DNA from: Fidelibacterota bacterium
Lineage (GTDB): Bacteria > Fidelibacterota > Fidelibacteria > Fidelibacterales > Fidelibacteraceae
Length of the DNA: 38,130 bases
Direction of reading: 5' to 3'
Assembly (NCBI GenBank): GCA_028699915.1
Contig: JAQVTR010000014.1
Coordinates: 1-38,130, forward strand
A model generated the notes under the pieces. The model worked only from the letters and a program-made list of their open reading frames with translations, did not search any database and had not been told where the DNA came from. This document shows, piece after piece, positions 22,561-27,687 of the stretch. The translations under genes and the position numbers were made by a program. Within the stretch, counting starts at the first letter, position 1; each line of letters starts with the position of its first letter.

Positions 22561-23838
22561 TTATTTGTTTTTCAGATTTGCCAGGGGTTTCGATTCTTTC
22601 AGGAATAGCGACAAGATCAATGCGGCCGCACCGATCACAACAAAAAATTTCATTAAGAATGGCAGATAGGTATTGGCACGGGCGCTCATAATTGCCACAA
22701 AAATAAGACCGGTAAGCTGGCCGGATAAAAGCAGCAAGCCCTGACTGGTTGATTCGGGGGCCGGACAGGTGATTTCGGCGGCGTACTGAAAACCGATTGG
22801 ACCCGCACTCAGGACAAAGAATCCCAACAAGAAAGACGAAATGAGGGCTATCGTGTAAGCCGCTTCCGGAGTCGGTGTTATTGCAGCGGCAAAGGCTATC
22901 CCCGCCAGTGAAGGCACCATTCCCAGGAGGCAGATATTGATAAAGATCTTCCGCTTCTTGAATATATCGGACAGGATGGGCAGGATCAAGGCTCCCAGAA
23001 TTCCCCCGATTAACATAATGCCGCCGATCAATCCGTCAGAATCCTTGACTTTCAGGTATTCCGCGATGGAATCTGTCATCGAAGAAACGGCATTAAAGAT
23101 TCCAAGCCCGATAAAGAAAATGAGAATTGTGATCCACATGTTTTTTTGTCTTAAAATATGTTTTAAGCCGTCGGTGAATTTATGCCGGACATAAGCTTCT
23201 TCAGAAGGCGGAGTGGGCGGTTCTTCTTTGATCAGGAAAATGGCCGCCAGACAGGCAATAAAGGTAATGACCCCGTAAATCATCAGCATACTGTGCAGGC
23301 CCTGACCGTAATTCGCCTTGCCCGGATCTGTTGCAACCATTAAGGGAGTAAGCATCATTACGATAATGATTCCTAAAAACTGGGACAGTGTTCCGAGGCC
23401 TGCAGCTGTCCCGCGTTCTTTCAGAGGAAACCAGCGGGCCGTAAGGGCAGTCAGACCGTTAAGAAGAAAAGGTTGCGAGATTGCCAGTGCCAGCTGGAAG
23501 ACGATCTGCGCTGTAAAGGAATCGGCAAAAATGCCCTTTAATAAAGCGGAAATACCGCAGAGTGCGGCTCCGAAACCGATCCCTTTCCGGATTCCCCAGG
23601 TATCAATCACATAGGAAGCCGGGATGCCGACGATCAGATAGACCAGCATGTAGGACATTGCCAGGAAGTCTATGTTAAAGATCGAATTGGGGTTGAATTG
23701 GCCTGCGTAAAAAGCTTCAGCTGCACGGGCTACCGGTGCGTGGGTCAGCCACTGTATCTCTCCAACCAGGCAAACCAGCATATAGGCGCTAAGAACGACC
23801 CAGCGGTAGCTGTAGGCTTTATAATTTTGTTCGCTCAT
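22561..23838 (-). CDS. MFS transporter, 12 predicted membrane segments
   Basis: A 425-residue major facilitator protein. About twelve hydrophobic segments are visible, the first at YRWVVLSAYMLVCLVGEIQW. After the second segment the motif A-like loop reads DTWGIRKGIG, and a second copy (DIFKKRKIFI) precedes the second half, with a central cytoplasmic loop (EEPPTPPSEEAYVRHK). The start WVVLSAYMLV...EIQWLTHAPV recalls FLVCR-like and related MFS groups, but the substrate cannot be deduced. ATG 23838 follows a TTG codon and a weak GGAAT site. It is the last gene of a three-gene operon with the Gate-domain protein (32-base gap) and the sulfur-relay oxidoreductase, suggesting a carrier for a sulfur compound or another metabolite of that pathway. 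Confidence 0.85.
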   Translation of the reverse strand: MSEQNYKAYSYRWVVLSAYMLVCLVGEIQWLTHAPVARAAEAFYAGQFNPNSIFNIDFLAMSYMLVYLIVGIPASYVIDTWGIRKGIGFGAALCGISALLKGIFADSFTAQIVFQLALAISQPFLLNGLTALTARWFPLKERGTAAGLGTLSQFLGIIIVMMLTPLMVATDPGKANYGQGLHSMLMIYGVITFIACLAAIFLIKEEPPTPPSEEAYVRHKFTDGLKHILRQKNMWITILIFFIGLGIFNAVSSMTDSIAEYLKVKDSDGLIGGIMLIGGILGALILPILSDIFKKRKIFINICLLGMVPSLAGIAFAAAITPTPEAAYTIALISSFLLGFFVLSAGPIGFQYAAEITCPAPESTSQGLLLLSGQLTGLIFVAIMSARANTYLPFLMKFFVVIGAAALILSLFLKESKPLANLKNK

Positions 23839-23870
23839 CAAGGAATTCCGATATTGTGCAGATAAAAAGA

Positions 23871-24881
23871 TTAATTCCGAACCTCAACGATTTTTGGCAA
23901 ACCGATCCAGGTCAGTTTTCTATAGATATTTCCGCGTGAAACCAGCGTCATTATCACAAACAACAGCAGGATCCTTACGATCAGGATCCACCCGACATTT
24001 GCGCCGATAGCGGCAAAAATAACCGTATCCTCTACCGCGGCGTGCAACAGACACATGGAAAGGGTCAGCATACAATTGTCCTTGTGGGTCAATACCTGGT
24101 TTTTGTTCATGCTGAACAGAATACCCGCTCCGTAAGCAATTCCGATAAAGGTGCCGACCAACCAGGGCCCCATGGCGGAAGGGGACATTCCAAAGAAGCG
24201 GGTGATCCCCGAAAAGGCGTTCTTGATCTTCCGGCGCTGTTTCCAGAGCAGTACCAGTTCGTAGAACAGCATGATCAGGAACATCATCAGCAGGATCTGG
24301 CCGGCAGTGCCAAGTATTTTCAACAGCAGATCCGCCCAGGAGAAGCTTTGTGCCGTTTCAAGAGCATTTACCGTATCCCCGCGCAGCATTTCGGGCATGA
24401 TACGATGCAAGAGCATGCCGGCAAGCAGGGAAAAAACAATGCGGGTAAGCGCAATGGCAGGCCTTCCCATCTTGAGCTTGATCAGAATGCCGGTCTCCAC
24501 GATCAGGTTATGCGCAAAACCGGTCACAATGGCGATCAGGGTGATCTGACGCACGCTCAGCTCCAACACGCTGGCGGCGGCGACCGCGGCAAAGAGATTG
24601 TTGACCCAGGCGGCCATAAAAACAAGGGCAGCTTCTCCGGGCAGGCCTAACATTTTCATGAGCGGTTCAAAATAGGGAGCGATAAAGTCCAGAAAACCCA
24701 CGCGGTCGAGCAGGGCGGTTAGCAGTGAAACGGGAATATAGATCTTTAAAAGAATCCAGGATACCTTCAGCGATTGCTTCAGGGCTTTCACAAAAACATC
24801 CCGGATGTTTTCCGGAATAAAGTCCCGATCAAACCGTTTTCTATTATTTTCGATTTTCATCCCTGTTTTCCGAATATGCAT
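23871..24881 (-). CDS. Nucleoside-recognition (Gate) domain membrane protein
   Basis: A 336-residue integral membrane protein with around eight hydrophobic segments and two Gate-type halves (about 50-160 and 235-330). The halves share a recognisable core: GFAHNLIVETG near 126-136 and LLHAAVEDTV near 283-292, each preceded by small residues and followed by a strong membrane segment (IAL..RIVFSLL, ILIVRILLLFV). Gate proteins occur in nucleoside carriers, in spore maturation proteins SpmA/SpmB, and in ferrous iron transporters; this one has no G-protein domain. ATG 24881 has GGAG 9 bases upstream; ATG 24860 is an alternative. The gene starts 27 bases after the oxidoreductase stop and is followed by the MFS gene. 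The substrate is unknown. Confidence 0.78.
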   Translation of the reverse strand: MHIRKTGMKIENNRKRFDRDFIPENIRDVFVKALKQSLKVSWILLKIYIPVSLLTALLDRVGFLDFIAPYFEPLMKMLGLPGEAALVFMAAWVNNLFAAVAAASVLELSVRQITLIAIVTGFAHNLIVETGILIKLKMGRPAIALTRIVFSLLAGMLLHRIMPEMLRGDTVNALETAQSFSWADLLLKILGTAGQILLMMFLIMLFYELVLLWKQRRKIKNAFSGITRFFGMSPSAMGPWLVGTFIGIAYGAGILFSMNKNQVLTHKDNCMLTLSMCLLHAAVEDTVIFAAIGANVGWILIVRILLLFVIMTLVSRGNIYRKLTWIGLPKIVEVRN

Positions 24882-24908
24882 CCCGGAAATCTCCGGAATC
24901 GTAAAGCA

Positions 24909-27368
24909 TCAGATAAACAAATTGACGTTGGATTCTTCGGCATCGCCCAGATAGGCACCCACACCGCCCAGCTGAACGCCATCGATCAGTTCTTCTTCAC
25001 GGATACCCATAACGTCCATGCTCATGGTACAGGCGACCATTTTTACACCTGCCGCCATGGCTTTGCGAATGAGTTCCTGAAGGCTGTCGATGTTTTTTCG
25101 CTTCATGACCATTTTCATCATGGCGGTTCCCATGCCGGCCATATGCATTTTGGACAGCTTGAGTTTTCCGGCGCCGCGCGGCATCATAGCGCCGAACATA
25201 GATTCGATGAACGATTTCGGCACTTTTTGCCGGTTGGATCTGCGCAGTACGTTCAAGCCCCAGAAGGTAAAGAACATGGTGACCCTTCTGCCCATGGCGG
25301 CCGCACCGTTGGCAATGATAAAACTTGCCAGGACCTTGTCCATATCACCGCTGAAAACAATGATGGTCTTTCCGTCCGGAGTTTCATGTACTTTGGTTTC
25401 CGGAGCTTTTCTTCCGCCTTTTTGTACCGTCGCAACGTATTCGTTCCCGCGTTTCTCATTGGATATCAGGGTGTTGCCCGTTCTCCGGCACCAGGCAACG
25501 ATATCGCGGGCAAAACCGGGATCGGAGGCCGAGACTTCCAGAGTGTCACCCTCTTTCAGGGTGTTCATGGTCTCAAAGACCTTCATTATGGGACCGGGAC
25601 ATTGCAGTCCGCTGCAGTCCAGCTGCAGGACTCTCGTACCGCCGCTCTGGACCGGTTCCGTTTCACGCCGGCGTTCGCTTGCCATGACGGAGGCTTCCGG
25701 AAGGAGTTCTTTATAATGCGTTGACTGATAAAAATTGGTACCGCCCGGATACAGCAGCACCTTTTCAAATCCAAGCTGCATCAAAGTGCGTGCCGCGTTA
25801 TAGGAACGGACTCCGATCGCGCAGAAAACAAGGAGCGTTTTTTGCTTGTCGATCTCAGCGGCGCGCTGGCGCAGCTGTCCCCAGGGAATATTAAGGGAAC
25901 CGGGGAAAGCAAAGGCCATGCGTTCGGCATCTTCACGTACATCCAGGATCAGGGCATCCTTTTGCTTTTCAACAGCGTCCCATTCGCAAAATACGATTTT
26001 CCCCTTCAGTACATTTTCCGCGACAAAGCCGGCCATGTTTACGGGGTCTTTTGCGGAGGAGAAAGGCGGGGCATAGGCGAGTTCCAGCGCTTTCAGATCT
26101 TCAACGCCGGCACCCAGCCGGATCGCCGTCGAAAGGATATCAATACGCTTATCGATGCCTTCGCGGCCGACGATCTGCGCACCGAAAAGTTTTTTGCCGT
26201 CCATGGAGAACAAAAGCTTCAGTGTCATCGGAGTGGCGCCGGGATAATAGCCGGCATGGGAATTCTGAGTAATGATGATGCTCTCGTAGTCTTTGCCTTT
26301 GGTCAGACCGCTCTTTTTCAGAGTTTTTTCACTGACACCGGTGCTTGCGGCGGTGAGATCAAAAATCTTGACAATCGAAGTTCCCTGGGTACCGCAATAA
26401 GGATCTTTTTCGCCGCAGATATTATTGGCGACGATGCGTCCCTGCTTGTTGGCCGGTCCGGCAAGCGGGATCATGGTCTTCTGGCGGGTGACAAAGTCTT
26501 CCACCTCGATTACATCTCCAACGGCAAAGATATCGGGATCGGAGGTCCGGAGAAATTCATCCACAATTACCGCACCGCGGGTACTCAGCTCAAGACCGGC
26601 TTCCCGGGCAAGATCGCTGTTCGGTTTGACCCCAATGGAGAGGATAACCAGGTCCGATGAAATGACCTTACCGCTTTTCATGCTGGCGTTCACTTTGGTA
26701 TCCGTTTGTTCAAAGGATGCGGCGGCATCGCCGAGGAGCAGTGTAATGCCCTGCAATTCCAGTTGTTCATGAAGTAACTGCGCCATTTCAAAATCCAGGG
26801 GAGCCATCACCTGATCCAGCATATCGGCAAGGGTGACCTGCAGTCCGGCATGATGCAGGTTCTCGGCCATTTCCAGTCCGATAAAACCTCCGCCGACGAT
26901 CAGAACGTTCTTTGCATTGGTATCCGCAATAAATTCCCGGATCCGGTCCGCATCGGGAACGGTCCACAGGGTCATTATTCGCGAGGCATTAATTCCGCTG
27001 ACCGCTGCTTTAAAGGGGGAAGAACCGGTGGAAAGCACCAGGGTGTCGTAGGATTCCCGGTAAGTATCGCCGCTTTCGACATTTTTAACGGTCACGATTT
27101 TTTTCTTACGGTCGATGGCAACGACTTCCTGCTTGATCCTGACGTCAATGTTATAGCGTCCCAGCATGGCTTCCGGGGACTGCAGAAGCAGAGAATCGCG
27201 CGATTTAATGACATTCCCGATATGGTAAGGGAGGCCGCAGTTGGCGTAGGAAATATAATCCCCGCGCTCGAACATGATGATGTTCGCATTTTCGTCAAGC
27301 CTGCGTAGACGGGCGGCTGTGCTTGCACCGCCGGCAACACCGCCGACGATCAGGATCTTTTTATTCAT
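24909..27368 (-). CDS. CoA-disulfide reductase-rhodanese-TusA-DsrE fusion
   Basis: An 819-residue cytoplasmic protein of four modules. The FAD/NAD(P)H disulfide oxidoreductase part (1-455) has GGVAGGAS (9-16), the single redox cysteine C44 in YANCGLPY as in CoA-disulfide reductases, the pyridine-nucleotide motif VGGGFIGLEMAEN (158-170) and a dimerisation domain. The rhodanese domain (about 464-555) has C516 in CAIGVRS. The TusA domain (about 577-650) has CPGP with C590. The DsrE/DrsE_2-like domain (about 666-819) has C780 in VACTMSMD. The whole suggests reduction of disulfide or persulfide species and relay of sulfane sulfur between cysteines. Similar fusions are known in anaerobes, but their physiology is poorly defined. 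AGGAATT precedes the ATG. It heads an operon with a Gate protein and an MFS carrier. Confidence 0.92.
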   Translation of the reverse strand: MNKKILIVGGVAGGASTAARLRRLDENANIIMFERGDYISYANCGLPYHIGNVIKSRDSLLLQSPEAMLGRYNIDVRIKQEVVAIDRKKKIVTVKNVESGDTYRESYDTLVLSTGSSPFKAAVSGINASRIMTLWTVPDADRIREFIADTNAKNVLIVGGGFIGLEMAENLHHAGLQVTLADMLDQVMAPLDFEMAQLLHEQLELQGITLLLGDAAASFEQTDTKVNASMKSGKVISSDLVILSIGVKPNSDLAREAGLELSTRGAVIVDEFLRTSDPDIFAVGDVIEVEDFVTRQKTMIPLAGPANKQGRIVANNICGEKDPYCGTQGTSIVKIFDLTAASTGVSEKTLKKSGLTKGKDYESIIITQNSHAGYYPGATPMTLKLLFSMDGKKLFGAQIVGREGIDKRIDILSTAIRLGAGVEDLKALELAYAPPFSSAKDPVNMAGFVAENVLKGKIVFCEWDAVEKQKDALILDVREDAERMAFAFPGSLNIPWGQLRQRAAEIDKQKTLLVFCAIGVRSYNAARTLMQLGFEKVLLYPGGTNFYQSTHYKELLPEASVMASERRRETEPVQSGGTRVLQLDCSGLQCPGPIMKVFETMNTLKEGDTLEVSASDPGFARDIVAWCRRTGNTLISNEKRGNEYVATVQKGGRKAPETKVHETPDGKTIIVFSGDMDKVLASFIIANGAAAMGRRVTMFFTFWGLNVLRRSNRQKVPKSFIESMFGAMMPRGAGKLKLSKMHMAGMGTAMMKMVMKRKNIDSLQELIRKAMAAGVKMVACTMSMDVMGIREEELIDGVQLGGVGAYLGDAEESNVNLFI

Positions 27369-27499
27369 AGCAATAATTCCTTTCGATACGGGATTTTTAA
27401 TGTTTTCATTTTAAATTAACTTCCAACGGGACCGGCTCATGAATAAAGCAAATTGAACGATCTTTGTTGCCGTCCTTATCCGTTTATAAATGAAAAATA

Positions 27500-27507
27500 C
27501 AAAAATA
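27500..27507 (-). promoter_or_regulatory. Possible -7 element for the sulfur-relay operon
   Basis: TATTTTTG on the minus strand matches TAnnTTTG. The leader would be about 125 bases. No -33 element is obvious, so this is tentative. Confidence 0.3.
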
Positions 27508-27636
27508 AAATTAAAAAAAACAGAGAATACGCAGTTTAAGTGTCGGATCGGAAAAATTGGTCCGAAAAAAAGCCAGGAGGGATTTTTCAAGAAAAAGATT
27601 GATATTGGGTGAGTATTATCACACTTTGAGGATAAA

Positions 27637-27669
27637 TTTGCATTTTGTTGTTTTTTATCGCTATATTTG
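27637..27669 (+). promoter_or_regulatory. Candidate promoter for topA-glyS
   Basis: TTTG (27637-27640), 21 bases, TATATTTG (27662-27669), an exact match to both Bacteroidota promoter elements. The predicted start near 27675 leaves a leader of about 12 bases with GAGG as the ribosome-binding site. Confidence 0.65.
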
Positions 27670-27687
27670 CAAAAAATTTGAGGATGA

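Follow-up and report, generated by a model that had tools for sequence, protein, structure and literature searches.

Here, we describe a locus of a Fidelibacterota bacterium, located in the 38,130-nucleotide stretch of contig JAQVTR010000014.1 that was analysed (the window), in which the gene for a four-module sulfur-relay reductase precedes the genes for two membrane proteins on the minus strand. The reductase is encoded by one ORF (24909..27368, minus strand; 819 aa), is supported by domain matches and homologues, and contains, in this order, a CoADR-like FAD/NAD domain (aa 4-447; Pyr_redox_2, 1.2e-61), a rhodanese module (aa 469-545; Rhodanese, 3.9e-11), a TusA module (aa 582-650; TusA, 1.6e-21), and a DsrE2 module (aa 667-818; DrsE_2, 6e-64). 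It is followed after 27 bp by the gene for a Gate-domain (PF07670) membrane protein (23871..24881, minus strand; 336 aa; Gate, 5.7e-10) and, after a further 32 bp, by that for an MFS carrier of the FLVCR type (22561..23838, minus strand; 425 aa; MFS_1, 1.2e-35). A sequence-only reading of the window had given the same four-module protein and the same spacing and strand for its two neighbors, and Pfam matches were obtained for all four modules. The start of the Gate protein may be at its second Met (24860), as suggested by the homologue in the sister species L031, and the gap to the enzyme gene would then be 48 bp, as in L031. The MFS ORF (22561-23841) opens with TTG; the ATG at 23838 agrees better with the homologues.

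Each module of the enzyme carries one conserved cysteine, read directly from the minus strand: C44 on the flavin side, in the active-site motif SYANCGLPY (codon at 27237..27239); C516 in the rhodanese loop CAIGVRS (25821..25823); C590 in the TusA motif CPGP (25599..25601); and C780 in the DsrE2 motif ACTMSMD (25029..25031). In an alignment of 80 full-length homologues, taken from 362 candidate four-module loci, these four residues are invariant in 79 to 80 of the 80 sequences, with one gapped row each for C44 and C780, and the CPGP and CxMSxD-type surroundings are likewise invariant. The remaining five cysteines (318, 325, 461, 585, and 627) are variable. Conservation so far beyond chance argues that the four cysteines are working sulfur sites. 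These are the cysteines that had been named from the sequence, and the idea of a sulfur-relay reductase on a single protein is supported.

The same reading had called the N-terminal part a CoA-disulfide-reductase core. The CoADR-like fold stands; however, this part scores 516.3 bits against TIGR03385, the CoA-disulfide reductase equivalog, which is below the curated cut-off of 578.8, and a persulfide-reductase-type or CoADR-like label, therefore, fits better than that of a proven CoA-disulfide reductase. Similarly, the DsrE2 module reaches 94.3 of the 210 bits required by the DsrE2 sulfur carrier equivalog NF047629 while passing the broader PF13686 at 215 bits. Among solved structures, CoADR-RHD (3icr), Npsr (3nta), and CoAPR (8a56) come closest, and they cover only aa 3-548. 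With its CoADR-like fold, C-terminal rhodanese, and both cysteines, the enzyme has the features of Npsr and CoA-persulfide reductases. It shares the CoADR-like core, the rhodanese, and the matching catalytic cysteines with Npsr of Shewanella loihica (3nta) and A. fulgidus (6pfz), CoADR-RHD of B. anthracis (3icr), and CoAPR of E. faecalis (8a56), all of which lack the TusA and DsrE2 modules (PMC7969121, PMC9405070).

That fusions of this type are known, as had been remarked, holds for two published proteins. BF638R_0572 of Bacteroides fragilis, a pyridine nucleotide-disulfide oxidoreductase, has the four-module architecture, is repressed by BmoR, and has a role in the thiol/disulfide balance (PMC6158253). 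The likeness to the window enzyme is one of architecture, i.e., four domains in the same order on one chain with one conserved cysteine per module. By contrast, BF638R_0572 adjoins a MarR regulator, its description mentions neither a Gate nor an MFS gene, and the Bacteroidota homologues form a clade apart from that of the window enzyme. Pcar_0429 of Pelobacter carbinolicus, which has the same four modules, has been proposed to be an NADH-dependent sulfur (S0) reductase with a rhodanese-TusA-DsrE relay (PMC3543383); its function is a proposal only, and carrier genes are not described beside it. A scan of genome contigs returned the four-module protein in many Clostridia, Bacteroidota, Cloacimonadota, Spirochaetota, and others. 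Thus, the enzyme is an additional member of an already described family that is widespread in anaerobes, and the window copy adds little new to it.

Several lines of evidence bear on the descent of the enzyme. First, its closest sequence is from a Candidatus Neomarinimicrobiota (Fidelibacterota) MAG (92%), followed by sequences from Clostridia (66-69%). Second, in a maximum-likelihood tree, the window enzyme and that of the MAG lie within a Bacillota clade (SH-aLRT 97-100) and apart from the Bacteroidota/Cloacimonadota/KSB1 clade, and a grouping with FCB is rejected by the AU test (p-AU 8.8e-7). This tree places the donor no finer than Clostridia. Third, DsrE2 is present in two of 10 genomes of the genus, and the full-length fusion was found in none of the other relatives searched. 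Several of the sister genomes are 66-89% complete; the enzyme-free sites themselves are directly assembled. Based on the clostridial nesting and the AU rejection, horizontal acquisition of the enzyme is probable, with its gene entering ahead of a Gate-MFS unit that was already present. Base composition gives no sign of transfer, in that G+C and GC3 of the enzyme gene match those of its neighbors; the transfer is, therefore, not recent and is older than the split of the two species that carry the enzyme. Altogether, these findings suggest that the enzyme was probably gained from a Clostridia-like donor before that split.

We consider it likely that the enzyme is a per-/polysulfide reductase of the Npsr/CoAPR type, that it is a clostridial acquisition, and that Gate and MFS are probably not its dedicated transporters. 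The enzyme would be soluble, dependent on NAD(P)H and FAD, and equipped with two added sulfur-carrier domains; its most likely task is to remove sulfur from small molecules loaded with it. In two-module relatives, the sulfur enters at the rhodanese Cys, travels on bound CoA, and is reduced by the flavin-side Cys (PMC7969121, PMC9405070). We suggest that, in the window enzyme, sulfane sulfur, supplied by a persulfide, a polysulfide, or a thiosulfate-like compound, would form a cysteine persulfide on DsrE2 (C780), TusA (C590), or rhodanese (C516) and would then pass to enzyme-bound CoA as CoA-SSH. The CoA-SSH would swing to C44 beside the FAD, where sulfide would be released and NAD(P)H spent. 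The outcome would be that the CoA/thiol pool is held reduced or that electrons are disposed of. We infer the substrate and the sequence in which DsrE2, TusA, and rhodanese hand on the sulfur; the rhodanese-CoA-flavin-cysteine route and the thiol-balance role would follow those of the published relatives.

Two other functions were weighed for the enzyme. It could be an electron sink, i.e., a cytoplasmic terminal reductase of elemental sulfur or polysulfide in anaerobic growth, as in the proposal for Pcar_0429 and in keeping with the distribution of the enzyme among anaerobes. However, the enzyme is missing from most of the genus and, thus, not part of central metabolism, and no membrane or hydrogenase partner is linked to it in 79 loci, making this function unlikely. 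A still less probable function is that of a reductase mainly of CoA disulfide, or of a mixed disulfide, in oxidative stress, with TusA and DsrE2 feeding sulfur to other proteins. The CoADR-like core with its single-cysteine active site fits this function, as does a finding on the B. fragilis homologue, without which bmoR-background cells become more sensitive to diamide, an oxidant of thiols (PMC6158253). In addition, the TusA module is the sole TusA domain in the genome, and the enzyme could, therefore, also supply sulfur for tRNA or cofactors. Nevertheless, rhodanese-bearing Npsr enzymes reduce persulfides and polysulfides, the A. fulgidus Npsr is inactive on CoA disulfide, and the score below the equivalog cut-off points in the same direction. 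These observations favor the per-/polysulfide reductase.

Gate and MFS had been proposed to form, together with the enzyme, an operon for the transport and processing of a sulfur compound, with the absence of conserved linkage elsewhere named as the result that would speak against it. A search for the three-gene neighborhood returned largely this result: the order enzyme-Gate-MFS is confined to two species of one genus, that of the window and a sister, and is not conserved across lineages. Among 79 enzyme loci outside the window genome, a relative of the window MFS gene is near none, and only two have a Gate gene close to the enzyme, namely those of the sister species L031 and of L109, a Mycoplasmatota bin. 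By contrast, four other species lack the enzyme there and have Gate or Gate-MFS at the corresponding position. Gate homologues are present in six of 10 genomes of the genus, and the 245 phylum genomes examined contain no others. In G008, topA is divergent from Gate-MFS and the enzyme is absent; in G009, also without the enzyme, Gate directly adjoins topA; and in G003 and G007, topA and Gate are separated by genes other than that for the enzyme. The MFS gene is convergent with asnS in G001, G002, G005, and G008, as in the window. In G007, the 740 bp available after Gate contain no MFS gene, so the Gate-MFS pair itself is not fully constant. The most parsimonious history would be that of an older topA, Gate-MFS, asnS locus that, in one lineage, took up the enzyme gene between its topA and Gate genes.

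The genes near the enzyme in other lineages bear on the same question. Near clostridial enzymes, a thioredoxin gene recurs upstream (11 loci), as do genes for Crp/Fnr-type (16) and ArsR-type (four) regulators. In one clostridial genome (L033), thioredoxin is encoded 93 bp upstream of the enzyme gene, and YeeE-type sulfur transport genes (PF04143; L033:4374-5508) start 70 bp downstream, which is the sole YeeE case. These neighbors support a thiol or sulfur role for the enzyme, as judged from gene context, and not for Gate or MFS. A Gate relative is present in eight of 50 enzyme-bearing genomes and adjacent to the enzyme only in L109, in which a Gate pair ends 68 bp upstream on the same strand. 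In two genomes related to L109 (G337 and G356), Gate and enzyme are on separate contigs, and no recurrent sulfur gene was found among the Gate neighbors elsewhere, including those in L109-related genomes. In the L109 pair (L109:7004-7932), each Gate gene is of half length, and the two represent a naturally split version of the fused 336-aa protein; in the related L147 and L148, the operons that contain the Gate pair also contain genes of the surface-polymer type, PgsB-like ones among them. A sequence search with the window Gate protein returned no match to solved structures, its AlphaFold model had a pLDDT of 41 from a four-sequence alignment, and nothing was found in the literature on Gate/YjiG function.

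Among PDB structures, the only ones matched by the MFS carrier are FLVCR1 and FLVCR2 (E=1e-31 by sequence, 4e-55 by profile), and homologues with 41-53% identity are present in other families of the phylum. The choline site of FLVCR1 contains W125, Y349, Q214, and Q471 (PMC11168923). W30, Q122, and Q374 of the window carrier are equivalent to W125, Q214, and Q471 and are invariant in seven bacterial homologues. By contrast, Y349 is replaced in the bacterial homologues by an invariant Asn (N249), such that three of the four residues are kept and the cation-pi cage for choline is incomplete. This likeness to choline/ethanolamine transporters does not suggest sulfur transport, and a substrate of the organic cation or amino alcohol type appears more likely than a sulfur anion. 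In passing, a bacterial carrier that resembles FLVCR and keeps three of the four choline-site residues offers a lead to where the FLVCR family came from and what it transports.

How far, then, could the three genes be a functional sulfur operon in which a sulfur compound, or a precursor of thiols or CoA, is carried by Gate, MFS, or both and processed by the enzyme? The same-strand spacing is tight in both species (27-48 bp), making co-transcription of the three genes plausible there; the genes have remained together since the two species diverged (82-92% protein identity); and the distant L109 pairing and the YeeE-type genes beside a clostridial relative would fit as well. However, Gate-MFS without the enzyme, the rarity of Gate beside the enzyme, the separate contigs, the lack of a recurrent sulfur gene beside Gate, and the FLVCR-like carrier all weigh against such an operon, which we regard as quite improbable. 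Because of the L109 pairing, a very small residual chance is left that Gate-family proteins are partners of the reductase, e.g., exporting sulfide, persulfide, or a CoA precursor, in a pairing that would have arisen at least twice (in the window genus and the L109 lineage) and would explain why the acquired gene settled beside Gate. We, therefore, return to the per-/polysulfide reductase for which Gate and MFS are probably not dedicated transporters. The locus is a caution in this respect: tight spacing suggested a sulfur transport operon, and the sister genomes point to the enzyme as a later arrival beside older carriers.

The intergenic region between the enzyme gene and the divergent topA (27369..27687) has a topA-proximal half in common with enzyme-free members of the genus, and this shared half presumably marks one side of the enzyme insertion. 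A scan of the region for consensus promoters and terminators gave counts about equal to those in shuffles. A CRP-like palindrome, GGTGA-N6-TCACA (27604-27620), is present in L031 and degraded in L030 and L028; it was dropped as a candidate operator of the enzyme gene, being topA-proximal and >200 bp from the enzyme start. Upstream of topA, TTTG-N21-TATATTTG (27637-27669) is largely conserved in the sister genomes L031, L028, and L030 and resembles the Bacteroidota -33/-7 promoter consensus.
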